Shown here: piece after piece, positions 3,480-44,138 of the stretch | Numbering within the stretch: the stretch's first letter is position 1 | Layout of the letters: every line of letters starts with the position of its first letter | Origin: Clytia hemisphaerica | Taxonomy: Eukaryota; Cnidaria; Hydrozoa; Leptothecata; Clytiidae | NCBI GenBank assembly: GCA_902728285.1 | Contig: CACVBU010000910.1 | Coordinates: 62,001 to 126,000 of the forward strand | Direction of reading: 5' to 3' | Length of the DNA stretch: 64,000 nt | Translations under genes and position numbers: made by a program | The notes under the pieces: model-generated | Told to the model about the DNA's origin: nothing | What the model saw: only the letters and a program-made list of their open reading frames with translations | The model's database searches: none

Positions 3480-4808
3480 GGTTGCGAAGCGATCCAGACT
3501 CCGCCTCAATTCGCAAGTTGCTAGCAAAATAAGAGACACTCTAAAAATCCCTCTAATAAATAAAGGCAATATAGAGACAGGGTCGTAAGCTAAGAGCCTT
3601 AATGCCCCAAACATACACAACATAATCTACGGAGAGGCACAACCACTGACCTTTATATAACCCTGGACAAAGCTTCTCAATCCCAGCCAAGCAAAATCTT
3701 TGATCGGAGTTTTTTGAAAATTGGTACCCTAATGTCGGCACTACTCGATAGTGGTGTAAATGCATCGAGAGCGCTAGGTATACTTTTCCTCAAATTCTTT
3801 TGATGATGTAGCGGCGTTTTAGACGTTAATTTTTAGCATTGCAATGGCTTCTCCTTGGGTACCAATTCTAAAAAAACTCCAATCAAAGATGGCAGATGTT
3901 ACTTGGTCCAGGGTTATATAAAGGTCAGTGGGCACAACACCCGCCACCGCCCGCCGCGCATCGCTCTTATTTTCCTTCTAGTTATTCTAGTGTAAATGGT
4001 GCCTTAATAAAATCGAACGATATTAGTCGAACGATCGAACATTTTTATTCGAATCACGAATCGTCTGTCGTCATCAAAACATAAAAATAAAACAAAAACA
4101 AAAATGTACAAAGATGGCTTGTTGGTTCTTGGGCAGTTTTGATTTATTTCTTGACAAATTGACAAATTTGATTACCTCCGTGCTTCTTTATCATAGAATA
4201 TCCACTTGGTTTAGCAAGGTAAGTTTCGTTCATTAAAAAAGAGCACTCCTCCCGCCCGCCCGCGCGACATGCAAAAACCTCTCATTGATTGACCTTATTT
4301 GATACTTGATACTTGCTGCTAAAAGTCGAGGGATGATGAAGATCCTTTCTGTCAACGTTCAAACTAATTTTTTTTCATATAACAGCAAAATAAACATTTA
4401 CAACCGAAGAACCACTGCTTAGATTGCTTAGATGCGTGCCGCCCGCGCGGCAATTTGATCAACTTCAGATTCTAAGTCCGTGTTTCGGCTTCCGGTAATT
4501 TTGTTGCTGTTCACTGTTAGGGTACACCATTTTAAAACGGCATTTTTCGCAGTCCTAGCTACCAAACCGAGAAAGTTTCTGTGGCTTCAAGGCAAACCAT
4601 TCAAGGTCATTTTGATAAAATCATCGGTTTGGAGATGTGATTTATATAGCAAATTTTATAGCAAATTTTCGCTTGGGATAGAAGTTAAAGGTACGTGCAC
4701 AATATAGCAAAACTGCTTCGCTCATAAATTCGCTTCGCAACAAGCCGTATATGTATAAAAGTTGCGAAGCGTTCCAGAGCCTCCTCGATTCGCAAGTTGC
4801 AAGCAAAA
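3480..4808. repeat. Imperfect 50-bp direct repeat pair
   Basis: The text at 3480-3532 (GTTGCGAAGCGATCCAGA onward) recurs at 4759-4808 with a few changes. The two copies are about 1.28 kb apart in the same orientation. They may be ends of a retroelement remnant, which I cannot confirm. Confidence 0.4.
3646..3932. repeat. Short inverted repeat with TATATAA core
   Basis: Two roughly 30-base arms (3646-3678 and 3899-3932) are reverse complements, sharing CCACTGACCTTTATATAACC. They may be the ends of a small non-autonomous element, but no target duplication was found. Confidence 0.5.
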
Positions 4809-5312
4809 CATTTAATGACCAATGACATACAAACACGACGCAGCATTTGTGCAGTTTTCCTTTACATTTGCTGCAGCCTTTCCGAATATCCTATCATTTG
4901 CAAATGTTTTATAGTTCCTCTCTGTAAAAATGACATCTGTAGATAATCTCTCATTGATGAAAAATGAAGCTTCGACCGTTCTATGTACTTTTCATTTTCT
5001 AGAATAAATAGCAAAAAAGTTTAAAGAAACAACAATATAAGAAGTAAGATGAAAGTACTACTACAGTAAACACACTCAGGGCCAGTACTGCTCAGGGCAT
5101 TTTGAACTTAGAAATGAAAACAAACTGTACCCTTATAATCATAAAGGTTGGTGAGTCCAGTCAAAACACAGATTTGATCTATAGCATCACGCTTCACCTT
5201 TACAAAAAGGAGGATATCATAAAAACCAAAATGAACTTAGCGTCATATTGGTAGCGTCATATTCAGATTCGTAGCGTCATATTCACTTTCAAATCGAAAG
5301 TGCTATCAAAAA

Positions 5313-6702
5313 GTGTTCTGGCCAACTTGGATCAAACTGTATGTGTTCCAATTATAGAACGGACGGATGCCATACCCATTGGTGACCTTTTAAAGAAAAA
5401 ATGAAGTTTATAGCTATTTCCGTTCCTGAGATCGGATGCGGAACGTACTACATGGTGAGGTTTCCGAAAGTGTGGAAAAGTGGAATTCTAGTGTTCTGGC
5501 CAATTTGGATCAAACTGTTTGTATTCCAATTATAGAACGGACGGATGCCATACCCATTGGTGACCTTTTAAAGAAAAAATGAAGTTTATAGCTATTTCCG
5601 TTCCTGAGATCGGATGCGGAACGTACTACATGGTGAGGTTTCCGAAAGTGTGGAAAAGTGGAATTCTAGTGTTCTGGCCAATTTGGATCAAACTGTTTGT
5701 ATTCCAATTATAGAACGGACGGATGCCATACCCATTGGTGACCTTTTAAAGAAAAAATGAAGTTATAGCTATTTCCGTTCCTGAGATCGGATGCGGAACG
5801 TACTACATGGTGAAGTTTCCGAAAGTGTGGAAAAGTGGAATTCTAGTGTTCTGGCCAATTTGGATCAAACTGTATGTATTCCAATTATAGAACGGACGGA
5901 TGCCATACCCATTGGTGACCTTTTAAAGAAAAAATTAAGTTTATAGCTATTTCCGTTCCTGAGATCGGATGCGGAACGTACTACATGGTGAAGTTTCCGA
6001 AAGTGTGGAAAAGTGGAATTCTAGTGTTCTGGCCAATTTGGATCAAACTGTATGTGTTCCAATTATAGAACGGACGGATGCCACCACCATTTGTGACCTT
6101 TTAAAGAAAAAATGAAGTTTATAGCTATTTCCGTTCCTGAGATCGGATGCGGAACGTACTACATGGTGAGGTTTCCGAAAGTGTGGAAAAGTGGAATTCT
6201 ATTGTTCTGGCCAACTTGGATCAAACTGTATGTGTTCCAATTATAGAACGGACGGATGCCTTACCCATTGGTGACCTTTTAAAGAAAAAATGAAGTTTAT
6301 AGCTATTTCCGTTCCTGAGATCGGATGCGGAACGTACTACATGGTGAAGTTTCCGAAAGTGTGGAAAAGTGGAATTCTAGTGTTCTGGCCAATTTGTTTC
6401 GAACTGTATGGGTTCCAATTATAAAACGGACGGATGCCACACCCATTGGCGACCTTTTAAAGAAAAAATGAAGTTTATAGCTATTTCCGTTCCTGAGATC
6501 AGATGCGGAACGTACTGCATGGTGAAGTTTCCGAAGGTGTGGAAAAGTGGAATTCTAGTGTTCTGGCCAATTTGGATCAAACTGTATGTGTTCCAATTAT
6601 AGAACGGACGGATGCCACACCCATTGGTGACCTTTTAAAGAAAAAATGAAGTTTATAGCTATTTCCGTTTCTGAGATCGGATGCGGAACGTACTACATGG
6701 TA
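5313..6702 (+). repeat. Left 178-bp tandem array (about 8 units)
   Basis: Unit starts such as GTGTTCTGGCCA fall at 5313, 5491, 5669, 5846, 6024, 6202, 6380 and 6558, giving a period of 178 (one unit 177). Units are about 95% alike. It lies in the left terminal inverted repeat of the 8-kb element. Confidence 0.95.
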
Positions 6703-9055
6703 AGTACGGCGTGGTATGACGAAATTCTTTTGTTTTAGGCCATATTATGCGTAAACTTTAGGGGCTTATATTTTGGGGAGACCTCTTTTATACCAAAAGA
6801 TACCTATATTTTCTTGCTCAGAATTTTCTAGCGATTCTAATGACATAACGGTATCATGACCGCATAATTAGATTAAAAGCTAAAGTGCACGAAAATAAGA
6901 AATCAAATCTGTCTTTGATGAATTTCTATCAATTTTTTTAGAAATAATTTTGGTATCATTTTGATGAGAATTTTTTAGACTGCAAGTTAGTGTAAAATTT
7001 GTTACTGGATACTGAAAGTTTAAAAAGTAATGGATCAAAAACGAAAAACATAAAACCACTTTTATAAAAACAGCACATAGAAACCAGCCCTCTTCGCATG
7101 ACGAGCTGTTTTTTTTCTGAACTTTTTGTAACGACCAAATTAAAGCTAAAACAAAAGAGTTTTCAATAGACACGATCAGAACACTTCGGGTAATCAGAAG
7201 CACATTTTCTATTCCATCCCATTTCTTTGACTTATCTGGAATCAAATTATCGCTGACTATGGGTGCTTTTTCACTACGCTAGATAGATAAATGGTTCTCA
7301 TCAATAGTCCTTTTCATAAATTTTTAAGGGTTGTAAAAAATATACAATGAAGGTCAATGAAGATTCGTGCTTAACATCAGATTTTGATCGCTTCATGTTA
7401 AGATTTCAGATTTAACGTCGAAAATTGGTCATTAAACTTTTTGTTCTCCAAGAGAGGGGTAGAGCTCTCTTGGCTTAATGACCAATTAAACCAAAGATAC
7501 ACCGAAAATAAATTGTTTGCAATAAAATAGCATTCAGAGCATCAACATTTGTCAGCAGTGAAATGGTTTGGTTTTTGCATAAAATGAAAGAACTGGCTGC
7601 GTTTAGACCAGCCTGGCATTTGTAATTGCTTGCAGTATTCTTTTGAATTCTATTGTTCCGCGCAATTGTTCGGTTTGTCAAATGCCTAATGATGCCAGCG
7701 TGTTGGCATTTCGTTGGCATTTTAAATGCCATTTTGAGCAAAGGAATCCCCTTTTCTGGCATTTCAAATCAAACAAAGGAATCAAAACAAAGAGAAAAAA
7801 TGACATTTTTGATTTTTTAAAGTATTTGCACGTTTTTTATTCAGTTCTTTCTATAGATTGTAAAATTCGCAAGATTTGCCATAGCCTAGCCCTACGGCAA
7901 AAAGTTTCAGTCTTAATGACTGCAGTTTTTGAGAAATTCCATGCTTTTCATTGTTTGATCTGTCAAAGTTGAACTTGAGGGAATCACCTTTTCAGTAATG
8001 GACTCTAAAAAGACGATTCCTTAAATGCCATGACAGAAAATACAATGGAAAAGCTATTAAAATCGAATCCCTCATGAGTAAATGCCAAATTACAAATGCC
8101 AGTTGGTCTAAACGCAGCCAGTGCCTCCACTGTTGGAGAACTGTTTTTAAAAACGACTGACTTATAATTACTTTCAGTTAAATTTTGCCAACCATGCTGC
8201 AATTAACTCCAAATTCAAAGGGTCGTAAACGCTTTGACAACTGTTTTGGGAGTCAGTAATATTTTCCTATCAATTTTTTTGTTTCAGCTAATCGATTCTC
8301 GCCACACAGTCTCAATGAAAAAGCACCATATGCTAGCTTAAAATACCTGTTAGAGGCGATTTCCGGCTGGACAAGGGTGGGTGGGTTCGATAACTGGGGC
8401 GGTGGATGACTTAAACTTTCTAATGATTAGTTTTGAGTGGTCGAAATTGCAGGAAGTAAAAAACGTTATCTCAAATAAAAAGGGTACAGTAGCCCTTGCT
8501 CCTTTAGCAAATTCGAACTAACTGCAAAATTAATCACCTCGTTTGTTGTCATAGGTGTCTCTTTATGAACAGTCTGAATTGATCAAAGGAAATTTCTTTT
8601 TTGTTACAGACTGAATAAACTAGGAATACTTTTTAAAAAGCAATGATATGATATCAGTACCCGTTTGATTTAGGAAAAGATGAATTTTGTAATTAAGGAT
8701 TAGAGTTTAACTCTGGTGGAAACCCGAAATTAAGGTCATCCCACCACTCCGTTCATTTTTATGCAAGTTTTCTTACATTTTAAGACTATTCTTAAAAGAC
8801 ATTTATTCTTTGAGGAGGAAGGCTATTTTCTGCATGAACCAAAAGGGCTCTGTTGAATTCGACTTTTGCAGATGAAGTTTTTGGGGAGGGTGTGAGAAAT
8901 AGGCCAAATATATGCGCGTGTCCTTTATGGATGGTCTAGGTCTCTTGGTAGAAAAAAATATATAAACAAAGAACAATTAGCTGAAAAATGCCTTTCATTA
9001 ATTTCTTTTTGGTTGATTACTATCTCGTCAGGAAGCTTACATACCTATGGATATG
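6703..9055. other. Interior of the 8-kb element, left part
   Basis: No gene is supported. A pair of inverted arms sharing CTGGCTGCGTTTAGACCA (7594-7630 and 8094-8120) suggests another small nested element. Short frames here lack family features. Confidence 0.5.
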
Positions 9056-10284
9056 TACCGTGAATAGCACAGGTCAAAATCATATTTTGACGCTGTGCCG
9101 ACGAATCGAGATTCTATTCAGCGCGCAATCAACGAAAACAAAACCATGACGACCATCCAAGATCTTGGATGAAGTTCAAAGTTGATATTTTTATTCCCGT
9201 CTTTGAAAACACAACTTAAAAAATTCATTAATGCTTTGTAAAAAGAGTCAGTGATAGAGAATCATAACATAAAGTCTGTCTATTATTTCGATTCAATTAA
9301 AGTGACATTTCCATAACTAAAAGTTTAGTAATTACTGTTATACATTTGGGGATCATGTAAAAGCTTTCTTTTGAAAGAAACTCATTTCAATTACACTTGG
9401 AGGTTTCTGGGGAATTCGTAAATAAAGTCTGTCTCGAAATAATTTGCAGCTGGAGAAAAAAATGGCTGTAACTTTTGATAGAATTCGAATCAAGTTGCGG
9501 TTTTGTGCTCGTTAAAAAGATATTTGTGAGTGGAATATTATCAAGTAAAAAAATTGAGAAAAAAAAGGAAAATAAAAATGAAAAATGAAGAAGAAAAAAA
9601 TCAACTTCTTGTAGAAATGTGGTATAATTATCATTTTCACAGGAGTGATTCTTCAATCTTAGATCATTACCACTGTCAAAAAATCTTTCAAAAATATTCA
9701 TTCAATCAAAAGATATCAAACAAAAGTTATTGCTGGTTGACTATATAAAGTAGTAAAAAACGACAAAAAAAACGAAAAAAACTGCCTTTTGTCGATCAAC
9801 CAGCAATAAACTTTGTTTGATATCTTTTGATTAAATGAATATTTTTGAAAAATTTCTTCACAGTGATGATGATCTAAAATTGAAGAGTCACTCCTGTGAA
9901 AATGATAATTATACCACATTTCTACAAGAAGTTGATTTTTTTCTTCTTCATTTTTCATTTTTATTTTCCTTTTTTTTCTCAATTTTTTTTAATTGATAAT
10001 ATTCCACTCACGAATATCTTTTTAACGAACACAAAACCGCAACTTGATTCGAATTCTATCAAAAGTTACAGTCATTTTTTTCTCCAGCTGCAAATTATTT
10101 CGAGACAGACTTTAGTAAACTGCAAACTGATACAGTCTGCTAGATATTAATATGGTAATATTTGCTCTTCATCTTTGATTTTTTTCTACAGTGATTAGAT
10201 TGACACATGCGCGATAAAATTTCTTTTATTGGTCTTCAGAGGTTAAAATATTCTTTGAAAACTTAACCTCTGATACTCAGGGTA
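9056..10284. mobile_element. MITE with 9-bp duplication, carrying a nested fold-back
   Basis: It begins TACCGTGAATAGCACAGGT and ends with an imperfect inverted copy (reverse complement TACCCTGAGTATCAGAGGT). Perfect 9-bp duplications ATGGATATG lie at 9047-9055 and 10285-10293. A second copy sits in reverse orientation at 54184-54676 with its own 9-bp duplication, which confirms the ends. About 690 bases of this copy are a later fold-back insertion (9423-10114). It has no coding capacity. Confidence 0.85.
9423..10114. mobile_element. Fold-back element nested in the MITE
   Basis: A near-perfect palindrome with arms of about 345 bases that start TAAAGTCTGTCTCGAAATAA and meet near 9755-9790. A 5-bp duplication GTAAA flanks it (9418-9422 and 10115-10119). 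The related copy of the host MITE at 54184-54676 lacks it, which confirms a secondary insertion. The lysine-rich short frames on both strands here are arm sequence, not genes. Confidence 0.85.
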
Positions 10285-10293
10285 ATGGATATG

Positions 10294-10984
10294 GCCTTTA
10301 ATGTATTATTTCAATTTTTGTGTTATTTATTCCTATTTTTACAGCAACCATTTTTCTTTTGTTTTCATAATTATTATATTCAAAACAAAATAATATTCTT
10401 CGTTTTCTTGTATTCTTTTTGTTCTTCATTTGCCTACTCAAAAATAAAAAAGACTGTCACAGAGTTAATAAAATAGACAATATGGAAATTGACATGGTAG
10501 TGCATTGCAAGTGAATTGATTAATCTTTATATGTGGTATGCATTTTGGTTGATATCATAAGTCACATGTGGATATATGTATTTCTATTTTGAAATTATGA
10601 CGATTGCTGTATCGCTTATCCCTAATGAAGCTTATATTCATTGAATTTCAAATTATCGTAAATTGTCGTCATTTTCAGTCTTCATTAACAAAAAGTCGAA
10701 TGGATTCGAAAGTTTTCATTACAATCACTAACATTCGATACTGCATATACGCTTGAAGTAATTTATCAATATTGTTTTATTCTGTTTCAACCGATTGCGA
10801 TATTCTATATTTGCTCATTGGAAACATAAAATTTTATGATTTTCAGCATTTCTATCATAAATCAACTGTCGCACTCAGCCACCAACCGACCATTGACAAT
10901 AGTAAAATACAGTAACAATTCTTATCGCGATTTCTACGATTCCACTGTGACTTCTTTCGACCTAAGTATCCACACTTGACCTCT
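10294..10984. other. Interior of the 8-kb element, right part
   Basis: AT-rich sequence between the nested MITE and the right satellite array. No gene or repeat recognised. Confidence 0.5.
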
Positions 10985-13135
10985 ATCTTCGAACACTAGA
11001 ATTCCACTTTTCCACACTTTCGGAAACTTCACCATGTAGTACGTTCCACATCCGATCTCAGGAACAGAAATAGCTATAAACTTCATTTTTTCTTTAAAAG
11101 GTCGCCAATGGGTGTGGCATCCGTCCGTTTTATAATTGGAACCCATACAGTTCGAAACAAATTGGCCAGAATACTAGAATTCCACTTTTCAACACTTTCG
11201 GAAACTTCACCATGTAGTACGTTCCGCATCTGATCTCAGGAACAGAAATAGCTATAAACTTCATTTTTTCTTTAAAAGGTCACCAATGGGTGTGGCATCC
11301 GTCCATTTTATAATTGGAACACATACAGTTTGATCCAAATTGGCCAGAACACTAGAATTCCACTTTTCCACACTTTCAGAAATTTCACCATGCAGTACGT
11401 TCCGCATCCGATATCAGGAACAGAAATAGCTATAAACTTCCTTTTTTTCTTCAAAAGGTCACCAATGGGTGTGGCATCCGTCCGTTCTATAATTGGAACA
11501 CATACAGTTTGATCCAAATTGGCCAGAACACTAGAATTCCACTTTTCCACACTTTCGGAAACTGAACCATGCAGTACGTTCCGCATCCGATCTCAGGAAC
11601 GAAAATAGCTATAAACTTTATTTTTTCTTTAAAAGGTCACCAATGGGTGTGGTATCCGTCCGTTCTATAATTGGAACACATACAGTTTGATCCAAGTTGG
11701 CCAGAACACTAGAATTCCACTTTTCCACACTTTCGGAAACCTCACCATGTAGTACGTTCCGCATCCGATCTCAGGAACGGAAATAGCTATAAACTTCATT
11801 TTTTCTTTAAAAGGTCACCAATGGGTGTGGCATCCGTCCGTTCTATGATTGGAACACATACAGTTTGATCCAAGTTGGCCAGAACACTAGAATTCCACTT
11901 TTCCACACTTTCAGAAATTTCACCATGTAGTACGTTCCGCATCCGATATCAGGAACAGAAATAGCTATAAACTTCCTTTTTTTCTTCAAAAGGTCACCAA
12001 TGGGTGTGGCATCCGTCCGTTCTATAATTGGAAAACATACAGTTTGATCCAAATTGGCCAGAACACTAGAATTCCACTTTTCCACACTTTCGGAAACTGA
12101 ACCATGCAGTACGTTCCGCATCCGATCTCAGGAACGAAAATAGCTATAAACTTTATTTTTTCTTTAAAAGGTCACCAATGGGTGTGGTATCCGTCCGTTC
12201 TATAATTAGAACACATACAGTTTGATCCAAATTGGCCAGAACACTAGAATTCCACTTTTCCACACTTTCAGAAACTTCACCATGTAGTACGTTCCGCATC
12301 CGATATCAGGAACGGAAATAGCTATAAACTTCATTTTTTCTTTAAAAGGTCACCAATGGGTGTGGCATCCGTCCGTTCTATAATTGGAACACATACAGTT
12401 TGATCCAAATTGGCCAGAACACTAGAATTCCACTTTTCCACACTTTCGGAAACTTCACCATGTAGTACGTTCCGCATCCGATCTCAGGAACGGAAATAGC
12501 TATAAACTTAATTTTTTCTTTAAAAGGTCACCAATGGGTATGGCATCCGTCCGTTCTATAATTGGAACACATACAGTTTGATCCAAGTTGGCCAGAACAC
12601 TAGAATTCCACTTTTCCACACTTTCGGAAACCTCACCATGTAGTACGTTCCGCATCCGATCTCAGGAACGGAAATAGCTATAAACTTCATTTTTTCTTTA
12701 AAAGGTCACCAATGGGTGTGGCATCCGTCCGTCCTATGATTGGAACACATACAGTTTGATCCAAATTGGCCAGAACACTAGAATTCCACTTTTCCACACT
12801 TTCGGAAACTTCACCATGTAGTACGTTCCGCATCCGATCTCAGGAACGGAAATAGCTATAAACTTCATTTTTTCTTTAAAAGGTCACCAATGGGTATGGC
12901 ATCCGTCCGTTCTATAATTGGAACACATACAGTTTGATCCAAGTTGGCCAGAACACTAGAATTCCACTTTTCCACACTTTCGGAAACCTCACCATGTAGT
13001 ACGTTCCGCATCCGATCTCAGGAACGGAAATAGCTATAAACTTCATTTTTTCTTTAAAAGGTCACCAATGGGTGTGGCATCCGTCCGTTCTATAATTGGA
13101 ACACATACAGTTTGATCCAAGTTGGCCAGAACACT
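10985..13135 (-). repeat. Right 178-bp tandem array (about 12 units)
   Basis: The same 178-bp unit as at 5313-6702, in reverse orientation. The marker GAACACTAGAATTCC and its variants recur from 10991 to 13129 in 12 intervals of about 178. Some alternate units share private variants (for example the 11.3-11.6 kb and 11.8-12.1 kb blocks), which suggests expansion by a two- or three-unit higher-order block. Confidence 0.95.
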
Positions 13136-13291
13136 TTTTGATAGCACTTTCGATTTGAAAGTGAATATGACGCTACGAATCTGAATATGACGCTACCAAT
13201 ATGACGCTAAGTTCATTTTGGTATCATAAAATGAACCAAGGAAAATTTCATAATTTCAAAAAAGTCATTTTGCACTATCATAATATAACTA

Positions 13292-14852: not shown

Positions 14853-15827
14853 CGGTTGGTTCGAAACGCAGGACACAGGACCCAGGAGGCAGGACACAGG
14901 ACGCAGGACAGTGCTGACAGGTCAGCTTTAATTGATGTAAAAGACAAAGAAAATGTTTGAAAAACACTTGTAATTGTTAGAAATATCATTCTGAAGGTAT
15001 TTTATTGGTCTAGAACCTTTTTAAATGTCAAAATCTATCCACATGCTTGCCACGTGCTTTTGCATTTTGTGCCGTGTATAACACGGACCTGTAATACTTG
15101 TATTATATATTACACATAAATCATGCATTTATAATAGCAGTTATCTTTTCACATTGGCATGTTACATAATATGTTATATACAAAATACATGTGTTAAAAA
15201 TATTTATCTCATCTTTAAACAGCCCTTTAAACAGCCCCTGACAGGAAAATAGCTATTTCACAATCACTTTATCATATCTCATTATATCTCCTGCATCACC
15301 TTGGGTATGATAACAAAAGTTGACTAAAATAGCGTCAAAGGTTTGTATTTTATTAATATATCAATATTTTTATTCCCTATCTCGTATTTTTGATGAAAAT
15401 GACATCACTATTTTCATATCTCTAAAAATGCTCTCTTGGAGCATTTAATGTATTCAAAATATTTAAATCTATATCTACTTGCACCGTCAGCATCCTATTT
15501 AGCATGAAAAAATATTTTGTTGTAAACTGATTTACACACCTTGTATTTTGTGATAGCGTCATCATTTACATAATTTAAATGTCATTTTGTCAATATTTGG
15601 GATTGATGGCTTGTCATTTAAAAATCTTCTAAATAGCGTATTTTGTATAATTATATGGTATAATTTTCCATTGCGTATAATGTTTTTAGAAACATTTTAT
15701 GAATTATATGTTACGAATGTGTTACAATTTTCCGGTCTGTAGTTTGTATGACCTGCGTCCTGTGTCCTGTCTCCTGCGTCCTGTGTCCTGTCTCCTGCGT
15801 CCTGTCTCCTGCGTTTCGAACCAACCG
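14853..15827. mobile_element. 975-bp inverted-repeat element with 9-bp duplication
   Basis: The ends are CGGTTGGTTCGAAACGCAGG and its inverse, each followed inward by a short array of an ACAGGACGCAGG-type motif (about 14873-14915 and 15752-15812). A perfect 9-bp duplication TGTCAGAAA flanks it (14844-14852 and 15828-15836). The interior has no frame. The duplication length matches the 8-kb element at 5225, although the termini are unrelated. Confidence 0.85.
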
Positions 15828-17010: not shown

Positions 17011-17460
17011 CAAAAAAAGTTGATGAATGAAGATGATGAATTAAGAAGAAGAAATTTAAGTTCTTGTAGAAAAGTGCTATGATCTTCATTTTTGTAATGG
17101 AGATGCTTCAGTATTACAACGTCATAAATGCTAAAATAAATTGAAAAAATAGTCGTTCAGTAAAAAGTACAGTTTAAAACTTTTTTATTTCCAAACTTTT
17201 TTATATTTTTGATTTTATTTTTATCATCATTTTTATTTGTATTCCACCCATATTTATCTTTTCAACAAGCATTGAACCGAAATCAATTCAAACAGCCTCT
17301 TTTGTCTCGGCTGCAGATTATATTTAGACAGACTTTAGTTTTGGCGAGGGTGTCACTTTATGTGCTTACTTCGTTTCACCTTTTTGCTTTTTTCTTGTAC
17401 ATCACAAGATAAAATAAAGTATTCCGAAGTAAACAATTTAGGGCCGTTGTTTTTTAAATT
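17011..17460. other. Relic of the fold-back family and spacer
   Basis: The text at about 17020-17340 resembles one arm of the fold-back elements (ends near TAGACAGACTTTAGTTTTGG), with no intact partner arm. The same kind of relic precedes gene A3 near 24740-24890. No gene is supported. Confidence 0.45.
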
Positions 17461-17530: not shown

Positions 17531-17569
17531 CTGTATCTTTCTTTTAGCTTAGAGTATTTTGCTTAAAAA
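17531..17569 (+). promoter_or_regulatory. Conserved 5' splice acceptor of gene A1
   Basis: A pyrimidine tract ending in TTAG at 17549-17552, then AGTATTTTGCTTAAAAA and the ATG. The same block, with upstream text CATAAT-GATTTCAATTCTG, precedes A0, A2 and A3. It is either the end of a 5' UTR intron or a trans-splice acceptor; the sequence does not decide. Confidence 0.6.
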
Positions 17570-18640
17570 ATGAACGAGTTTGAAGAAATAAAAATAAAAG
17601 TTGAACAAGAAGAAGATCATGGTTGTAATGAAACGAATCATGAACATTTGGAAATTTTAATCAAACTGGAAGATGAATCAGTTGGATATTCAGATGACGA
17701 AAATATGGAACCAATTAAAAACCATGAAAATGAACTATCTAAAAATTCTTGTAGAAATGTAAAGGGGAACGATGTTACATCATCCGAAGAAACAAACCCA
17801 CAAAATTATGAAATTAGCATTAAACTTGAAGATGAGTCAAAACCTCAAGATAATCAAAGTGCTAAATCAATGCAATTTTTGGAAAATCGAAATTCAGTAA
17901 ATATTAACGATGGAACAAATTGTTTTGATCAGCTTTCACCGAATGCAGGAATGAGTTCACAGATCGGGGAGGAAATCACTATTAAGTTTGAAGATGAATT
18001 AGAAAGGTTTCAAAACCATGAAAATGAAAATATACAGGAATGTTTTGAGGCTAACAAGACTGAAAATTCTAATAATGACCACTTGACAGGTGCAGATGGT
18101 TTTGATTACGATCAAAGTATTAAACCTTTCAAGTGTAATGAATGTGGTGAACGATTTTACCAAGAAAGCACTCTAACTCGACACAAAGGGATCCATAAAG
18201 GATATAAGTATAGATGTAAACAATGTGATAAAGGTTATAATGCTAAAAATGCTCTTATTCAACATCACAAAGATCTTCACAAAGATTTGAAATCCTTCAA
18301 ATGTGACAAATGCCATAAAGCCTTTAGCAGCGAAACTTACTTGACAATCCATCAAAGATCAGTTCATGAGGGAGTTAAACCATTTGAATGTCAAGTATGT
18401 GGTAAATGTTTTGCACTAAAAAGACAATTAACTTCTCATCACAGATTTGTCCATGAAGGTATAAAGCCTTATAAATGTCAAGAATGTGGTAAATGTTTTG
18501 CTAGAAAGAGTTATTTGAAGCGGCATAAATTACTAGTTCATGATGAGATAAAGGATTTTGAGTGTCAGGAATGTGGTAAATGTTTTGCTACAAAAGGTAA
18601 TCTGAAGCGGCATAAATTAACAGTTCATGACGGGATATAG
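17570..18640 (+). CDS. C2H2 zinc-finger protein A1 (6 fingers)
   Basis: A 356-residue probable nuclear DNA-binding regulator. Residues 1-186 are acidic and carry four IKxE motifs (lysines 10, 32, 85 and 139) that fit the SUMO-acceptor pattern; no KRAB, BTB or ZAD domain is visible. Six fingers fill residues 187-356, mostly C-x2-C-x12-H-x4-H joined by EGIKP(F/Y)-like linkers instead of TGEKP. The coding region has no intron. The start follows a conserved acceptor block with stops upstream. It ends at a TAG where paralogues read AAG (GATAAAG became GATATAG). At least one more finger is still legible after it, so the protein is probably a truncated allele or descendant. Targets are unknown. Confidence 0.9.
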   Translation: MNEFEEIKIKVEQEEDHGCNETNHEHLEILIKLEDESVGYSDDENMEPIKNHENELSKNSCRNVKGNDVTSSEETNPQNYEISIKLEDESKPQDNQSAKSMQFLENRNSVNINDGTNCFDQLSPNAGMSSQIGEEITIKFEDELERFQNHENENIQECFEANKTENSNNDHLTGADGFDYDQSIKPFKCNECGERFYQESTLTRHKGIHKGYKYRCKQCDKGYNAKNALIQHHKDLHKDLKSFKCDKCHKAFSSETYLTIHQRSVHEGVKPFECQVCGKCFALKRQLTSHHRFVHEGIKPYKCQECGKCFARKSYLKRHKLLVHDEIKDFECQECGKCFATKGNLKRHKLTVHDGI

Positions 18641-19065
18641 GCTTTTGTGTGTCAGGAATATGGTAAATCTTTTGCAGAGAAAAGAAACTTAACTTTGCAT
18701 CAAAGAACTATCCATCAAGGTTAAAAAACTGTTAATGTCAAGAATGTGGTAAATCTCTTGCTACAAAGATTTATTTTTAAAAACCTCAAAGAACTGTCCA
18801 TGATAAAGCCTTTTGAGTGTCAAAACTATGGAAATACTTTTGCTGAAAAAGGTTCGTTATAGGAACATCAAAGAAAAGCACATGATAAAATCTACACTTT
18901 TCAATGTCATGAATGTGGTCAATCTTTTGCATTTAGGTTTTTTTTACAGAGGCGTCAAAAGGATGTTAATGAGAGAATGAAAGCTTTATGTGTGAAAGTG
19001 TTGCAAACCTTTTGCAGGGAAAACTAATTTGAAGATGCACCAAAGAACAAGCGAATAGGCGATAA
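18641..19065 (+). pseudogene. Decayed 3' fingers of A1
   Basis: Directly after the A1 stop the frame still reads one finger (CQEYGKSFAEK) and then falls apart through TAA codons and frame changes. Finger-like text (ATGTGGTCAATCTTTTGC, then GTGTGAAAGTGTTGCAAACC) continues to about 19050. The same decayed text follows gene B1 (23714-24180), which links the two loci. Confidence 0.75.
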
Positions 19066-19284
19066 GAACATTTTTAGATCCTAAAAACGAAAGTCTCATC
19101 GGATTTTGTCATCGATCTATAGAGCTCCCTATAGTGCCTTCAACAGAGCTTTCTTCTTCCAAGCTGGAACAGATGATAATGCGCTGCAAACCTTTCTTAA
19201 AAATGTTCAAATTTGTAATAGATTTTACCAAATTATATTTAACACTTCTTTTGACATTTTCAAACATAATAATTTCAATTCTGG

Positions 19285-19324
19285 TACTGTATCTTTCTTT
19301 CGTTTAGAGTATTTTGTTTAAAAA
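19285..19324 (+). promoter_or_regulatory. Conserved 5' splice acceptor of gene A2
   Basis: Pyrimidine-rich tract ending in TTTAG at 19303-19307, followed by AGTATTTTGTTTAAAAA and the start codon, as in A0, A1 and A3. Confidence 0.6.
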
Positions 19325-20854
19325 ATGAATGAGATTGAAGGAATCAAAATAAAAATTGAAGAAGAAGAAATTCATGGTGGTGACGAAACGAATCATGAAC
19401 ATTTGGAAATTGTTATCAAACTGGAAAATGAATCAATTGGATATCCAGACAACGAAATTTTGGAACCATTCAAAAACCGTGAAAATGAACTATTTAAAAA
19501 TTATTGTAGAAATGTAAAGGGGAACGATGTTACATCACCCGAAAAAACTGACCTCAAAAATTATGAAATTAGCATTAAACTTGAAGATGAGTCAAAACTT
19601 CAAGATGATAAGAATGAAAGTCTAAAATTAATTGATATTTCGGAAAATAAAAATTCAGAATATATTAACGATGGAATGAATTGTTTTAATCAGTTTTCAC
19701 CGATTGAAGAAATTAATTCACAGATTGGGGAGGAAATCACTATCAAATTTGAAGATGAATTGGAAAGCTTTCACAACCATGAAAATAAAATTTCGCAGGA
19801 ATGTTTTGAGGTTTATAAGATTGAAAATCCAACCGTTGACAAAATAATGAAAGGTTCGGTTAAGGAACACCAAACAACAGTTCACGATAAACCTTTTACA
19901 TGTCTTGTATGTGGTAAGTCTTTTACATTGAAAAGTAATTTGAAGGTGCATCAAAGAACAGTCCATCAAGGTATAAAACCATTTTTGTGTCAAGAATGTG
20001 ATAAATCTTTTGGAAATAAAACGAAATTAACTTCCCATCAAAGAACTGTTCATCAAGGCATAAAGGCCTTTAAATGTCAAGATTGTGGTAAATGTTTTGC
20101 TACAAAGAGAAATTTGGTGAGGCACCAAAGAACAGTCCATCAAGGTATAAAGCCTTTTAAATGTCAAGAATGTGGTCTGCTTTTTGGGCGGAAATATGAT
20201 TTAGAGAGCCATCATAGAATTGTCCATGAAGGGATAAAGGCATTTGAGTGTCAGGAATGTGGTGAATCTTTTGCTACAAACAGAAATTTGGTGATGCATC
20301 AAGTAACTGTTCATGAGGGGATAAATCCTTTTGAGTGTCAAGAATGTGGTAAGTCTTTAGGAAGCAAATCAAACTTAACTTCGCACCAAAGAACTGTCCA
20401 TCAAGGTATAAAGGCCTTTAAATGTCAAGAATGTGGTGAATCTTTAGCTACTAAGAGAAATTTGGAGAGGCATAAAGTAACAGTCCATCAAGGTCTAAAG
20501 GCTTTTGAATGTCAAGAATGTGGTCTGCTTTTTGGGCGGAAATATGATTTGGTGAGGCATCATAGAATTGTCCATGAAGGTATAAAGGCATTTGAGTGTC
20601 AGGAATGTGGTAAATCTTTTGGACAGCAAAAGAACTTAACTTCTCATCAAAGAACTGTTCATCAAGGTATAAAGCCATTTAAATGTCAAGAATGTGGTAA
20701 AAGTTTTGGGCAGAAAACGAACTTAACTTCCCATCAAAGAACAGTTCATCAAGGTGTAAAGCCCTTTAAATGTCAAGAATGTGGTAAATCTTTTGGACAG
20801 AAAACGAACTTAACTTCCCATCAAAGAACTGTCCATCAAGGTATAAAGGTGTAA
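19325..20854 (+). CDS. C2H2 zinc-finger protein A2 (11 fingers)
   Basis: A 509-residue protein, the longest of family A. The N-terminal 190 residues repeat the A1 plan with IKxE lysines at 10, 32, 85 and 141. A broken half-finger (EHQTTVHDKP) precedes 11 complete fingers from residue 191, all C-x2-C-x12-H-x4-H with HQGIK or HEGIK linkers. The last two fingers are almost identical 84-base tandem units, and fingers 4 and 8 are near copies (CGLLFGRKYDL), which points to recent unequal exchange inside the array. One coding exon. Probable nuclear DNA-binding factor of unknown target. Confidence 0.9.
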   Translation: MNEIEGIKIKIEEEEIHGGDETNHEHLEIVIKLENESIGYPDNEILEPFKNRENELFKNYCRNVKGNDVTSPEKTDLKNYEISIKLEDESKLQDDKNESLKLIDISENKNSEYINDGMNCFNQFSPIEEINSQIGEEITIKFEDELESFHNHENKISQECFEVYKIENPTVDKIMKGSVKEHQTTVHDKPFTCLVCGKSFTLKSNLKVHQRTVHQGIKPFLCQECDKSFGNKTKLTSHQRTVHQGIKAFKCQDCGKCFATKRNLVRHQRTVHQGIKPFKCQECGLLFGRKYDLESHHRIVHEGIKAFECQECGESFATNRNLVMHQVTVHEGINPFECQECGKSLGSKSNLTSHQRTVHQGIKAFKCQECGESLATKRNLERHKVTVHQGLKAFECQECGLLFGRKYDLVRHHRIVHEGIKAFECQECGKSFGQQKNLTSHQRTVHQGIKPFKCQECGKSFGQKTNLTSHQRTVHQGVKPFKCQECGKSFGQKTNLTSHQRTVHQGIKV

Positions 20855-21740
20855 ATTGTCGAAAGTGTGGTAAATCTTTTAGACAGAAAACGACCATAAC
20901 CTCGCATAAGAACTTAACTTCGCATTAGAGTACCTTAAAGGAAGAAATTATGGCAGAAAGAAAATTTGATGGATTTGGCGGATTTGACTGAAATCCGCCA
21001 AATTAAGTTCCCGCCAAAATTTCAACTGAATTCCCGCCAAATTAAACATTTTGAAAATATGATCTCTTTTAAGGTGTTTTTGCTATTTTTTTCGCTGTTT
21101 TGACGCCATCTTAAGGTTAAATATTTAAGCTATCAAATTAAATTCCCGCCAAATTTAGTTTTTTCTTCCATCTGCCAAATTAAATTCCCGCCAAAATTTC
21201 TTCCCTAAAGGTACTGTCCATCGAGGTATAAAGTCTTTAAAATGTCACGAATGTGGTAAATATTTTTTAGAAAAAGAAATTGAACTTCTCATCAACGATT
21301 TGCCCATAGGTATACCAAATTTAAATGTTCTTAATATTGTAAATTTTTGTAGAGAAAAGAAACTTAGTTTTTCACCAAATAATTGTTCATGAAGTTGTAA
21401 AGACTTCTAAATGTCAAGATTTTGGTAAATATTTTGAATGGAATATAAACTTCTCATCAAAGGATTGTCCATCAAGGGATAAAGGCATATGATTCTCATT
21501 AATGTGGTAAATCTTTTGGGGATAAAAGTAACTTTTTAAGGCTCATCAAGAAAATTTCACGATAGAATAAAACTTTTTTAAAAAATGTTAAGAATGTGGT
21601 AAATCTTTTGCACAGAAAAGTCATTTGAAAGCACATCAAAGAACAGTGTATAAGATATAAAATCGTTTGAGTGTCAATAATATGGTAATTGTTTTTGAGA
21701 CAAAGGTTTGATAAAGAAACATCAAAAACAGTCCATGATA
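20855..21740 (+). pseudogene. Decayed fingers downstream of A2, split by a MITE
   Basis: Finger-like text (GAATGTGGTAAATATTTT and similar) with stops and frameshifts. The same decayed tail follows A3 (26091-26700), so the decay predates the duplication that made A2 and A3. A MITE (20933-21211) interrupts this copy only. Confidence 0.75.
20933..21211. mobile_element. TA-flanked MITE, CCTTAAAGG / GGCGG family, copy 2
   Basis: It starts CCTTAAAGGAAGAAAT and ends in the inverted form CCTAAAGG. TA flanks it at 20931-20932 and 21212-21213. The A3 tail has the unoccupied site (GAGTACTGTCC at 26163-26173), which fixes the ends exactly and shows the insertion came after the A2/A3 duplication. Confidence 0.9.
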
Positions 21741-22201
21741 TAAATTTGCAATTTTTTTTTGGTCGTACAAATCGGATTTTCTTATTTTGGGGAAATTCCC
21801 TCATGTCATATTTAGGGAAAAAGAGCATTACTCGGGATTGGATTGATACTTTTTTATAATTTTTTGCACTTTGATGTAAAATGGTAATATTTATAATGTG
21901 ATGAAGCCCGATTTTCAAATAATACTTTTTTTGGGCAAATATGGGCCAAAATAATATGCCTAAAAATGGGGTTTTCTGGACTTTATGTGAAATTGCTTCA
22001 TTTAGTTTGTTCCAAATTTTCGAACTGATCGCTACACTTTCCTACTCTCTTGCTATTTATCTCTTCATCTTTATCTGATTCCGACCACACACGTGACAAA
22101 ACTGAAAATTGTTCACTGTTTTAAATGGTAAATATCTCCCACAGATGAAAGGATACTAGGGAAATCCTGATAGAAGTTCACTCTAACCCCTTCCTCCCAT
22201 T
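21741..22201. other. Spacer shared by both A-to-B intervals
   Basis: No gene. Most of this sequence recurs upstream of B2 (26690-26990), as part of the larger segmental duplication. The antisense frame at 21499-21918 has no domain. Confidence 0.6.
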
Positions 22202-22342
22202 GGGGTTATCCATATAGTACGTACGCAAAATGTTTTTAAATATTGGATACCCCATTCCCCCTTAAATGACGTCATTTAAGCAATAATTTTGCTAATTCCC
22301 CCTCTCCCCCCTTCACTGCGTACGTACTATGTGGATGGCCCC
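22202..22342. mobile_element. Small MITE upstream of B1 (TAGTACGTACGCA type)
   Basis: Terminal inverted repeats of about 27 bases: GGGGTTATCCATATAGTACG at the left and the inverse of GGGGCCATCCACATAGTACG at the right. It lies about 85 bases before the B1 acceptor. A homologous copy sits at the same place before B2. Confidence 0.7.
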
Positions 22343-22400
22343 TTTGAACTTCAAGCTTCAAATAATTTTACGTCTACTTTATTTGTCTGTATCAGATTCA

Positions 22401-22450
22401 TATTTTTCTTTTGTTTACTTTATTTTCAGAGATAACACAACTAAATAATA
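22401..22450 (+). promoter_or_regulatory. Conserved 5' splice acceptor of gene B1
   Basis: A long T-rich tract ending TATTTTCAG (22421-22429), then AGATAACACAACTAAATAATA and the ATG. The identical arrangement precedes B2. It is a 5' UTR intron end or a trans-splice acceptor. Confidence 0.6.
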
Positions 22451-23713
22451 ATGAGTGATATAATTGAAATAAAAATAGAAGAAGATGTAATCGAAACCGA
22501 AGAAAATGAGTTTCCACAAACATTATCATTGATTGTGAAGAAGGAAATTGTTGTTTGTGATAGAGTATCAAGTATTCCAATGGTTAAAATCGAATGCAAT
22601 GATGGAACAGAATCAAACGAAAAAGCACCAGGGTTGAAGTATGGAGAACAGTCTAAAACTGACGCGTTCAAGAAGTTTAAGTGTTCCAAATGTTTTATAA
22701 GTCTTAAACGTAAAAGAGATTTAATAAAACATCGTCAAATGGTCCACGGTAGAATTAAGCTTTTCAAATGTAAAGAATGTGGTAAATGTTTTACATTGAG
22801 AGTTAAACTTAATGTACATCGAAATCGTGTCCACAATCAAAAGAAATCATTTAGGTGTCAGGAATGTGGTGAAACTTTTACACACAAAACTTACCTTGAG
22901 GAACACAAACGATCCTTACATGGAGCTGCAAACCATATAACTACCAAGAAAACTGCATTGTCCATTGAAAAGAAGATTAAACATAAACATTTTGAATGTC
23001 AAAAGTGTGGTAAATCTTTTGCTTGTAAGAGATCATTAATGAAACATCAATTAATTCACACTGGCAGTGACTCGCCATGTATGGACAATCTTCCTGATCA
23101 TACTCACGAGAACTTAAAAGCTTTCATATGTAAGACATTTAAATCAAAGAAGAAGCTGAAAAAACACGTTGACAGAGTGCATAAGAAGATAAGACCACAC
23201 GTGTGCGATGAATGTGGTAAAGGTTTTACCATGCAATATGAAGTTAAAAAACACCAGGATGCTGTTCATAAAGGTATAAAGCCGTTTGAATGTCAAGAAT
23301 GTGGTAAATTCTTTGCTACAAAGGGAAATTTGGCGAGGCACCAAAGAACAGTCCATGAAGGTATTAAGGCATTTGAATGTCAAGAATGTGCTCAAAGTTT
23401 TGGGCAGAAAACGACCTTAACTTTTCATCAAAGAACAGTTCATGAAGGTATAAAGCCTTATAAATGTCAAGAATGTGGTAAGTGTTTTGCTAGAATGAGT
23501 TGTTTGAACCAGCATCAATTAACAGTTCATGACGGGATAAAGGATTTTGAGTGTCAGGAATGTGGTAAATGTTTTGCTACAAAGAGTTATTTGAAGCAGC
23601 ATAAATTAACAGTTCATGACGGGATAAAGGCTTTTGAGTGTCAGGAATGTGGTAAATCTTTTGGACATAAATCGAACTTAACTATGCATCAAAGAACTGT
23701 TCATCTAGATTAA
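22451..23713 (+). CDS. Chimeric C2H2 zinc-finger protein B1 (B-type front, A-type back)
   Basis: A 420-residue protein. Its N terminus (MSDIIEIKIEED, with SUMO-like lysines 8, 30 and 46) and fingers 1-6 are nearly identical to B2. Finger 5 has lost four residues around its second cysteine (FICKTFKSKKK against FICKECGKTLSSKKE), so it cannot fold normally. After about nucleotide 23304 the match switches: fingers 7-11 and the 3' flank to about 24185 resemble A1, not B2. The last finger is intact where A1 has its premature stop. This is a gene fusion within the cluster. One coding exon; probable nuclear regulator whose binding specificity should combine both parents. Confidence 0.9.
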   Translation: MSDIIEIKIEEDVIETEENEFPQTLSLIVKKEIVVCDRVSSIPMVKIECNDGTESNEKAPGLKYGEQSKTDAFKKFKCSKCFISLKRKRDLIKHRQMVHGRIKLFKCKECGKCFTLRVKLNVHRNRVHNQKKSFRCQECGETFTHKTYLEEHKRSLHGAANHITTKKTALSIEKKIKHKHFECQKCGKSFACKRSLMKHQLIHTGSDSPCMDNLPDHTHENLKAFICKTFKSKKKLKKHVDRVHKKIRPHVCDECGKGFTMQYEVKKHQDAVHKGIKPFECQECGKFFATKGNLARHQRTVHEGIKAFECQECAQSFGQKTTLTFHQRTVHEGIKPYKCQECGKCFARMSCLNQHQLTVHDGIKDFECQECGKCFATKSYLKQHKLTVHDGIKAFECQECGKSFGHKSNLTMHQRTVHLD

Positions 23714-24185
23714 AAGACCTTAAATATCAATAATCCACATTAAATATCTTGCTACAAAGAGAAATTTAGAGAGTCATCAATTTAACAGTTCATGGTAAAA
23801 CCTTTTCAGTGTCAAAACTATGGAAATTTTTTTTAATGAGAAAGGTTCGTTATAAAAACATCAAAGAAAAGCACATGATAAAATCTAACCTTTTCAATGT
23901 CATAGATGTGGTCAGTCTTTTGCATTTAGATGCGTCAAAAGGATGTTAACGAGAGAATGAAAGCTTTTACGTGTGAAAGTGTTGCAAACCTTTTGCAGGG
24001 AAAACTAATTTGAAGACGCACCAAACAACAGCCGGCAAGGCGATTAGAACATTTTTGGATCTTAAAAACGAAAATCTCATTGAATCTCAATGCCATTGAC
24101 AAAGAGCTACCTATGCTGCCTTCAACAGAGCTTTCTCCTTACAAGCTGGAACAGATGATAATGCGCTGCAAATCTTTCTCAAAAA
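23714..24185 (+). pseudogene. A1-type decayed tail after B1
   Basis: Decayed finger text followed by AACAGAGCTTTCTCC and GCTGGAACAGATGATAATGC, matching 18720-19215 downstream of A1. It supports a B1/A1 fusion extending through the 3' flank. Confidence 0.75.
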
Positions 24186-25010
24186 CATTCAAAAATTTGA
24201 TAAGTTACCAAGTTAACAAACAAAGCTATATTTTCTCTTAAATTGTGCTTTTTTGGTCAACTTTTCAAAATCATAGGTGTATTTTAATCATGAAGACAGT
24301 CATAGTTATGTCAACAATGTTATAAGCAAATTACAATTTTTGCTCTGAAATACTTGTAACATCTGAGGTTAAAAGTTTTTGGATCGAAAAGTTTTTCAAA
24401 ATTTTATATTGTTAAATACCGTCAATCCTCAAATAAGTGCTCTGACGCTTATTTAATTTTTCAGGCTCTAAGGGGGGCGGCGCTTATTCAAGCGGGGCGC
24501 TAAAATTTTTCATTTCAGAAATTCGTATATCAACAAATTCGGAATCTGCTTAAACTTAACTTTTTCAAAAAAGGTTGGTTTTTCAAAAAAGGATGAATAA
24601 AAGAATAATTGGAAAAATCCAATTGACAATGTCTATCATTTTATTCTTAATCGCTTTCTTTCTTTTAAAGACACAAGTATCTACTCAATATCTTATTCAA
24701 TCAATAACAATATTCAATCAATAACAATATTCGAATAAGCGCACTTCATTTTTGTATCGGAGATGCTTCAATATTACAAAGTCATTAATGCGAAAAAAAA
24801 GAAAAATTAAATAAAGTTTATTCAATCAAAAACTACACTTTAAAACTTCTTCATTTCGGAACTTTATTTACATTTTTATTTTCATCAATACTCCAAAGTA
24901 AACAATTTGGGCCGTCGTTTTTTAAATTTCATCTACAATTTAACTTGAGGACTGCTTTAAATCTTTTCAAACATAATAATTTCAATTCTGTTACTGTATT
25001 TTTCTTTTAT
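24186..25010. other. Spacer before A3
   Basis: No gene. It holds a GC-rich patch (GGCGGCGCTTATTCAAGCGG near 24477) that may belong to an element between about 24418 and 24745, and a fold-back arm relic near 24740-24890. Confidence 0.45.
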
Positions 25011-25034
25011 CTTAGAGCATTTTGTTTAAATGAA
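24990..25034 (+). promoter_or_regulatory. Conserved 5' splice acceptor of gene A3
   Basis: Pyrimidine tract ending CTTAG at 25011-25015, then AGCATTTTGTTTAAATGAA and the ATG at 25035. An ATG five bases upstream (25030) is out of frame and stops at once. Confidence 0.6.
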
Positions 25035-26090
25035 ATGAATGAGATTGAAGAAATAGAAATAAAAATTGAAGAAGAAGAAGATCATGGTTGTGATGAAACA
25101 ATTCATAATAATTTGGAAATTATTATCAAACTGGAAAATGAATCAATTGGATTTCCAGACGACGCAATTTTGGAACCATTAAAAAACCATGAAAGTGAAC
25201 TTTTTAATAATTCTTGTAGAAATGTAAAGGGGAACGATGTTACTTCAACCGAAGAAACTGACCCCAAAAATTATAAAATCGCCATTAAACTTGAAGATGA
25301 GTTAAAATCTCTAGATGATAAGAATCAAAGTGTAGTAAATATTAACGATGGAACGAATTGTTTTGATCAATTTTCACTGATTAAGGAAATGAATTCACAG
25401 ATCGGTGAGGAAATCACTATTAAATTTGAAGATAAATTGTTTCAAAACCATGAAAATGAAAATAAGCAGGAATGTTTTGAGGCTGACAAGATCGAAAATC
25501 CAAACATTGACGAAATAACGAAAAGTTCGGTTAAAGAACATCAAAGAACGATATATCATAAACCTTTTAAATGTCAAGAATGTGGTAAATCTTTTGCTAC
25601 AAAGAGAAATTTGTTGAGGCACCAAAGAACAGTCCATCAAGGTATAAAAGCCTTTAAATGTCAAGAATGTGGTAAATGTTTCGCAGAGAAAAGGAAATTA
25701 ACTTCTCATCAAAGAACTGTTCATCAAGGTATAAGGCTTTTTAAATGTCGAGAATGTAGTAAATCTTTTGCTACAAAGAGTTGTTTGGTGAGACACCAAA
25801 GAACAGTCCATCAAGGTATAAAGGCATTTGAATGTCAAGAATGTGGTAAAACTTTTGGACAGAAAACGAACTTAACTTCCCATCAAAGAAATGTCCATCA
25901 AGGTATAACGGCCTTTAAATGTCAGGAATGTGGTAAATCTTTTGGACAGAAAACGAACTTAACTTCCCATCAAAGAACTGTCCATCAAGGTATTAAGGCA
26001 TTTGAATGTCAAGAATGTGCTAAATGTTTTGGGCAGAAAACGAACTTGTCTTCCCATCAAAGAACTGTCCATCAAGGTATAAAGGTGTAA
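25035..26090 (+). CDS. C2H2 zinc-finger protein A3 (6 fingers)
   Basis: A 351-residue family-A protein. The open frame extends upstream to 24945, but family alignment and the acceptor at 25015 place the start at 25035 (MNEIEEIEIKIEEEE). The acidic N terminus again holds IKxE motifs. A degenerate half-finger (EHQRTIYHKP) precedes six C-x2-C-x12-H-x4-H fingers from residue 178. Fingers 4-6 share FGQKTNLTSHQR, the type that also ends A2. It is the counterpart of A2 in the second cluster unit, with five fewer fingers. Confidence 0.9.
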   Translation: MNEIEEIEIKIEEEEDHGCDETIHNNLEIIIKLENESIGFPDDAILEPLKNHESELFNNSCRNVKGNDVTSTEETDPKNYKIAIKLEDELKSLDDKNQSVVNINDGTNCFDQFSLIKEMNSQIGEEITIKFEDKLFQNHENENKQECFEADKIENPNIDEITKSSVKEHQRTIYHKPFKCQECGKSFATKRNLLRHQRTVHQGIKAFKCQECGKCFAEKRKLTSHQRTVHQGIRLFKCRECSKSFATKSCLVRHQRTVHQGIKAFECQECGKTFGQKTNLTSHQRNVHQGITAFKCQECGKSFGQKTNLTSHQRTVHQGIKAFECQECAKCFGQKTNLSSHQRTVHQGIKV

Positions 26091-26700
26091 ATTGTCGAAA
26101 ATGTGGTAAATCTTTTAGACAGAAAACGACTATAACCTCGCATAAGAACTTAACTTCGCATTAGAGTACTGTCCATCGAGGTATAAAGTCTTTTAAATGT
26201 CAAGAATGTGGTAAATATTTTTTAGAAAAAGAAATTGAACTTCTCATCAACGATTTGCCCATCAAGGTATAAGAGCCTTTAAATGTCCTGAATTTTTTAA
26301 ATGTTTTGTAGAGAAAAGAAACTTAATTTTTCACCAAAGAATTGTTCATGAAGTTGTAAAGGCTTCTAAATGTCAAGATTGTGGTAAATATTTTGAATGG
26401 AATATAAACTTCTCATCAAAGGATTGTCCATCAAGGCATAAAGGCATTTGATTCTCATTAATGTGGTAAATCTTTCGGGGATAAAAGTAACTTTTTAAGG
26501 CTCATCAAGAAAATGTTCACGATAGAATAAAACTTTTTAAATGTTAAGAATGTGGTAAATCTTTTGCACGGAAAAGTCATTTGAAAGCACATCAAAGAAC
26601 AGTGTATATGATATGAAATCACTTGAGTGTCATTAATGTGGTAATTGTTTTTGAGACAAAAGTTTGATAAAGAAACATCAAAAACAGTCCATGATAAAAC
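26091..26700 (+). pseudogene. Decayed fingers downstream of A3
   Basis: The duplicate of the decayed tail behind A2, with the same stops and frame breaks but no MITE. It contains the empty insertion site at 26167-26168. Confidence 0.75.
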
Positions 26701-26990
26701 TTTGCAGTTTTTTTTGGAATTTTTTTTTTGGTTGTAAAAATCGGATTTTCTTATTTTGGGGAAATTCCCTCATGTCATATTTAGGGCAAAAGAGGATTAC
26801 TCGCGATTGGATTGATTCTCTTTTATCATTTTTTGCACTTTGATGTAAAATGGTAATATTTAAAATTTGATGAAGCCTAATTTTCAAATAATAATTTTTT
26901 TGGGCAAATATGGGCCAAAATGTGCCTAAAATTGGGCTTTCTGGACTATGTGAAATTGCTTCATTTAGTTTGTTCATTTAGTTCTCCCTT

Positions 26991-27144
26991 GTGGTTATCC
27001 ATATAGTACGTACTCAAAATGTTTTTAAATATTCGATACCCCCTTCCCCCTTGTACATAGTGAACAATAGAAATGACGTCATTAAAGCAATAGACATACG
27101 CCCCCTCTCCCCCTTCACTGCGTACGTACTATGTGGATGGCCCC
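26991..27144. mobile_element. Small MITE upstream of B2 (TAGTACGTACGCA type)
   Basis: The homologue of the element at 22202-22342 in the same position before a B gene, with about 15 extra bases in the middle. It was present before the B duplication. Confidence 0.65.
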
Positions 27145-27199
27145 TTTGAACTTCCAGCTTCAAATAATTTTACGTCTACTGTATTTGTCTGTATCAGAT

Positions 27200-27252
27200 T
27201 CATATTTTTCTTTTACTTACTTTATTTTCAGAGATAACGCAACTAAATAATA
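27200..27252 (+). promoter_or_regulatory. Conserved 5' splice acceptor of gene B2
   Basis: TATTTTCAG ends at 27231, followed by AGATAACGCAACTAAATAATA and the start codon, almost identical to B1. Confidence 0.6.
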
Positions 27253-44071: not shown

Positions 44072-44138
44072 TAGTGTTAAAATTTACAAAAGTCAATAAA
44101 TACTTTATCCTTTTTTCTCTAGTCGCAAGTTATTAAAA

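Follow-up and report, generated by a model that had tools for sequence, protein, structure and literature searches.

Foldback-type DNA transposons with satellite-sized tandem repeats in their terminal inverted repeats (TIRs) are already known in flies and beetles. Rehavkus-1_TC of Tribolium castaneum is described as a 9.5-kb DNA transposon whose inverted termini contain 164-bp monomers of TCsat23, arranged in short arrays of mostly five and eight consecutive copies, and a transposon origin is assumed for TCsat23 (PMC10218199). For the Rehavkus group, the published description gives 9-bp target site duplications (TSDs), TIRs of 26–400 bp and a minisatellite that precedes the 3′ TIR, while for MULEs the same source gives TSDs of 8–11 bp with long TIRs as typical (PMC6446971). 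Tetris/TIR-220 of Drosophila virilis and D. americana is reported to have ~220-bp tandem repeats in its TIRs, TSDs of 8–10 bp, an external flanking domain of up to 866 bp that has 37 bp in common with the repeat, an inner TIR domain, an interior without conserved ORFs and a copy number that varies between alleles; derived satellite-like arrays are described as well, supported by its authors with sequence, phylogeny and FISH, and most foldback elements are attributed there to Mutator (PMC4079207). FB4/FB of Drosophila melanogaster is presented as a non-autonomous element with TIRs of ~700 bp and 9–10-bp TSDs, and is argued to be a MULE (PMC8277862). Finally, Tm1 of root-knot nematodes is classed as a Mutator/foldback element with composite TIRs, unequal tandem repeats of a 13–15-bp motif, asymmetric terminal motifs, most commonly 9-bp TSDs and a known transposase-bearing member (PMC3169594).

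The locus described here appears to be another example of such an element. It lies in Clytia hemisphaerica, in a window of 64 kb that is the whole stretch of DNA analysed, and spans 5225–13222 (7,998 bp) between two exact copies of the 9-bp TSD ATCATAAAA. From outside to inside, each end consists of an 87-bp outer domain followed by an array of 178-bp units:

5216–5224, no strand: left TSD copy ATCATAAAA, an exact match to 13223–13231
5225–5311, plus strand: 87-bp outer domain on the left, containing the TAGCGTCATATT motif three times; identical inverted copy at 13136–13222
5312–6705, plus strand: array of the left TIR, with 7.8 copies of the 178-bp unit, from TRF and unit alignment
6706–10990, no strand: interior with nested elements inside, without a transposase domain in a Pfam scan of its ORFs
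10991–13135, minus strand: array of the right TIR, with 12.0 copies of the 178-bp unit and a repeated two-unit block (R06–R07/R09–R10), from TRF, direct repeats and unit distances
13136–13222, minus strand: right outer domain, 87 bp, the exact inverse of 5225–5311
13223–13231, no strand: right TSD copy ATCATAAAA, an exact match to the left copy

The perfect flanking duplication, the coordinates and the TIRs built of tandem 178-bp units, eight on one side and twelve on the other, stand as the first-pass annotation had given them, and the anatomy, with its 178-bp-unit TIRs and 9-bp TSD, supports its reading of the locus as a transposon. Its description of the two ends as exact inverses holds for the outermost 148 bp and fails beyond them, 10 of the 540 outermost positions being different; past the first 540 bp, the register between the arms is shifted by a left-arm unit of 177 bp. 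The two outer domains are 100% identical as inverted copies, and each contains the TAGCGTCATATT motif three times. When lengths from 5 to 13 bp were compared at the flanks of the element, none but 9 bp gave a matching duplication. Exact occurrences of the 18-bp end in the window are confined to the two element termini, and two more sites, each with 4 mismatches, appear when up to 4 mismatches are allowed. Exact searches with short probes gave 0 matches to unit and end in viral contigs and 0 to the unit in prokaryotic contigs, collections that say little about an animal element.

The combination of inverted ends and a flanking duplication was compared with a chance control. In a scan of the window for inverted-repeat pairs with TIRs of at least 20 nt, a flanking duplication of at least 8 bp accompanies 5 of 555 pairs, which are not independent of one another (many may arise from the two arrays). 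Across ten first-order Markov resamplings of the window, the scan picked up 37 pairs, far fewer than in the real sequence, and 0 of them were flanked by a duplication that long.

TRF finds a period of 178 in both arrays, with 7.8 copies and 96% matches on the left (5312–6705) and 12.0 copies and 95% matches on the right (10991–13135). Phase-cutting accordingly gives 8 left units (L01–L08), the innermost of which is incomplete, and 12 right units (R01–R12), at a spacing of 177–179 bp. With all 20 units cut in one phase and aligned, and gaps not counted as differences, the mean number of differences is 6.9 within the left arm (21 pairs), 8.3 within the right arm (66 pairs) and 8.0 between the arms (84 pairs), such that the units are not sorted by arm (p 0.40 by label permutation, with the incomplete L08 excluded). 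Between the arms, the outermost units hardly differ: L01 is 1 difference away from R01 and likewise from R02. L07 and R12 differ from each other by 5 positions and from every other unit by at least 10, and have private variants in common. Because the units mix across the arms and L07 and R12 share variants, both arms appear, as far as their sequences tell, to go back to a single array and to have kept their likeness since.

Within the arms, particular units recur. The pairs R06/R09 and R07/R10 are separated by 2 substitutions each, so that a consecutive two-unit block is present twice in the right arm, and a direct repeat of 11443–11742 and 11978–12277 (98%) has the same offset. Judged by its sequence, this recurrence of R06–R07 as R09–R10 is a segmental duplication, and the right array has been rearranged at some time. 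The left arm has a close pair in L02 and L03, set apart by 1 substitution and a 1-bp gap. Both sets of similar units (R06–R07/R09–R10 and L02/L03) are plausibly marks of unequal exchange or slippage. The unequal copy numbers had been taken in the first-pass annotation to show that the arrays changed length after insertion. This conclusion does not follow, since the asymmetry may predate the insertion: the rearrangements carry no date relative to it, and the donor copy may already have been asymmetric. Tm1 offers a comparable case, with a TIR repeat number reported to differ between the two ends of one element (PMC3169594).

The same unit relationships bear on whether copy numbers or the second arm could be wrong through an assembly artefact, an explanation to which we give very little credence. 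Inverted arrays of such similarity are difficult for assemblers, and in a shifted phase 12512–12689 and 12868–13045 have the same 178-bp sequence, for which reason the exact copy number could be a matter of assembly. Against an artefact, private variants separate the units, with 0 identical pairs among the 20 in the phase used; the inner borders of the two arms differ; and the TSD sits exactly at both outer ends.

A different question is whether the array is the element's own product. The transposon could instead have taken up into its ends a satellite that already existed in the genome, which we regard as unlikely. Kinship of the 87-bp outer domain with the unit, as in Tetris with its shared 37 bp, is rejected here: the best local score between the two is 17, a score that 218 of 500 shuffles equal or exceed, and this is a lack of significant similarity that would suit a captured unit. 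The unit is also richer in G+C than the interior (41%, one unit measured, against 32%). However, the two arms have diagnostic units in common (L07/R12), so that no more than a single capture, copied afterwards in inverted form, would be needed; moreover, unit matches in the window are confined to the two arms of the element, and no free-standing array is known. A CENP-B-box-like pattern is absent from the one unit examined.

The interior was examined for coding content through its 43 overlapping stop-to-stop ORFs of at least 40 aa, all of which were scanned against Pfam; frames in shorter pieces escape such a scan. None of the 43 has a transposase or PHD domain by Pfam, nor, at the E-value limits used, does any of the 21 window ORFs of at least 110 aa have a transposase domain; for one zinc-finger protein in the window scan, this rests on 25 of 29 matching families listed. 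A 132-aa frame at 6880–7278 on the minus strand matches TMEM192 (E 2e-4) with 21.0 bits, under the Pfam cut-off of 25, and could be a captured host gene fragment, or a match by chance. The other interior matches (YpjP, CNNM, Kinase-like and Herpes_US9, and MyTH4 as second match on the 132-aa frame) have E values above 0.05, lie below the cut-offs and are taken as chance. Rfam gives no match at gathering scores in the window.

Elsewhere in the window, 17543–28773 holds a duplicated C2H2 zinc-finger gene cluster with apparently decayed copies, to which fragments at 31–820 are related. A rhodopsin-type GPCR lies at 44100–45869, and the window also contains a glutamate-cysteine ligase fragment. 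Together with the zinc-finger genes, this gene content suggests an animal host, to which a comparison of the GPCR with solved structures added nothing.

Three segments can be delimited within the interior:

7592–8122, no strand: segment bounded by the short inverted repeat CTGGCTGCGTTTAGACCA, from an inverted-repeat search and self-match; no flanking duplication by eye
9056–10284, no strand: nested MITE-like element with ends TACC.../...GGTA and an imperfect TIR, supported by an exact TSD and a second copy at 54184–54676
9425–10112, no strand: near-palindromic hairpin of 688 bp inside the nested MITE, with TA on both sides, supported by the second copy and by arm complementarity

The nested MITE is flanked by ATGGATATG, an exact 9-bp TSD at 9047–9055 and 10285–10293. 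Its second copy at 54184–54676 has an exact 9-bp TSD of its own, CTGTATAGG, and is without the hairpin. The two copies correspond in two blocks on opposite strands, 9048–9424 with 54684–54305 (91.6% over 381 bp) and 10167–10281 with 54299–54186 (95.7% over 115 bp); where the nested copy ends in GGTA the second ends in GGTT, and the TIRs are imperfect. The match between the interior and 54.2–54.7 kb might be taken for a captured host segment (Pack-TIR), a reading that is rejected since each copy lies between 9-bp duplications of its own, which differ from those of the other. These duplications therefore lead us to read the repeated segment as a mobile MITE-like element and not as a captured chromosomal segment.

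The arms of the hairpin are 95% complementary over 194 nt. At the corresponding point, the copy at 54 kb reads GTAAATAGTAAAC, like an unoccupied site, although the junction is not wholly clean, with a gap of ~45 bp between the two MITE copies directly beside it. A near-palindromic hairpin at 53496–54172 and stretches at ~17012–17340 are ~67–80% similar to the hairpin at 9425–10112. The arrangement has three layers, with a hairpin inside a MITE inside the foldback element; the arrival of the hairpin may have preceded or followed that of the MITE in the foldback element. Whichever timing holds for the hairpin, the nesting means that the lineage of the element received at least one later insertion.

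Further elements of several kinds are found in the window. A second foldback-like element at 14853–15827, 1.6 kb from the one described here, has the exact 9-bp TSD TGTCAGAAA, CGGTTGGTTCGAAACG as its 16-bp outer ends and, in its TIRs, a 7-bp minisatellite (CAGGACA type) with 6.0 copies on the left and 8.6 on the right. A short element at 43203–43679 has the exact 9-bp TSD TCACAGAAA and a 19-bp exact TIR, TAGACTAGTAAACTAGTCG. The ends of both differ from those of the foldback element at 5225–13222. Of two small elements, the one at 33225–33508 has TIRs of ~42 nt with a duplication of 10 (or 8) bp and the one at 3644–3930 has TIRs of ~34 nt with a duplication of 8 bp, and a 31-bp tandem array of ~8 copies occupies 40780–41031.

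With good confidence, we read the element at 5225–13222 as a non-autonomous foldback-type DNA transposon (FB/Tetris/Rehavkus-like), probably moved in trans by a MULE-type transposase. It has the long composite TIRs, the variable-number internal tandem repeats and the flanking TSD of foldback elements, and its TSD of 9 bp falls in the MULE range of 8–11 bp. From the Rehavkus group it has the 9-bp TSD and mini- or satellite repeats at the termini; its arms, at ~1.5 and 2.2 kb with their arrays, exceed the Rehavkus TIR range of 26–400 bp, into which the 87-bp outer domain alone fits, and the lack of a PHD-finger transposase among the 43 interior ORFs is compatible with a non-autonomous member. 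Because no transposase domain was found, the superfamily is assigned from the length of the TSD and the form of the TIRs, and the element is classed as foldback, probably MULE-mobilised, and is filed neither as a MULE nor as Rehavkus. It is the 9-bp TSD together with the long TIRs that points to a MULE-type transposase. Mobility of the family is deduced from one TSD and one copy in the 64-kb window.

The same features could belong to a foldback form of another superfamily, P/Galileo-like or hAT-like, with tandem-repeat TIRs reached by convergence and a duplication of 9 bp by happenstance. According to the Tetris paper, the foldback form may arise independently in different lineages and exceptions to Mutator exist, and Galileo, of the P superfamily, is named there as foldback-like (PMC4079207); a transposase is, moreover, absent from the scanned frames of the element. 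We nevertheless hold this origin to be quite improbable, as the exact 9-bp TSD fits the 8–11 bp given for MULEs (PMC6446971) and exact 9-bp TSDs occur in three more families of the window, the MITE included, although none of the four families is tied to a transposase.

For such a foldback element, a course of events can be proposed. A MULE-type transposase supplied in trans would recognise the outer 87-bp domains, in which the TAGCGTCATATT motifs are possible transposase sites, and the element would have been pasted in with a 9-bp target duplication. The TIRs would have grown by amplification of the 178-bp unit. Unequal exchange within an arm, combined with exchange between the inverted arms, would then change the copy number while the arms stay alike.

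A comparison with the known systems places the element close to several of them. With Rehavkus-1_TC it has in common the satellite-sized arrays in the inverted termini of a transposon, and with the Rehavkus group the 9-bp TSD, whereas unit length, copy number and host differ and no PHD-finger transposase was found here; this likeness is one of published description. Like Tetris, it is a non-autonomous foldback with an outer domain, tandem-repeat TIRs and an interior without a transposase. In contrast to Tetris, its outer domain is 87 bp long and has no detectable similarity to the unit, the inner TIR domain is a feature of Tetris, and free satellite arrays are those of Tetris, the unit here being known from two arms in the window. 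The unequal repeat number in composite TIRs and the 9-bp TSD resemble Tm1, which differs in its 13–15-bp motif, as opposed to 178 bp, and to which the asymmetric terminal motifs and the transposase-bearing member belong. In the style of its TSD and long TIRs the element also resembles FB4, and its 178-bp unit distinguishes it from FB, in which the repeat units are short.

The seeding of satellites by way of a transposon is not a new route, having been published for Tetris/TIR-220 (PMC4079207). An active role for the element as the source of a nucleosome-sized (178-bp) satellite in its host is doubtful; on this reading its arms would amplify by exchange, detach from the ends and found long arrays, with every stage present in the genome between 8–12 units within TIRs and free satellite blocks, and the unit would be a captured satellite set moving by the transposon. 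A single copy alone leaves the general picture unchanged. Among the foldbacks with satellite-sized arrays, the element is a further, well-preserved case whose unit relationships are readable and which has nested insertions; elements of this kind have been documented or suggested as a source of satellites (Tetris, TCsat23). With its arms dissected unit by unit, it makes testable how inverted arrays stay alike and how they change in length.
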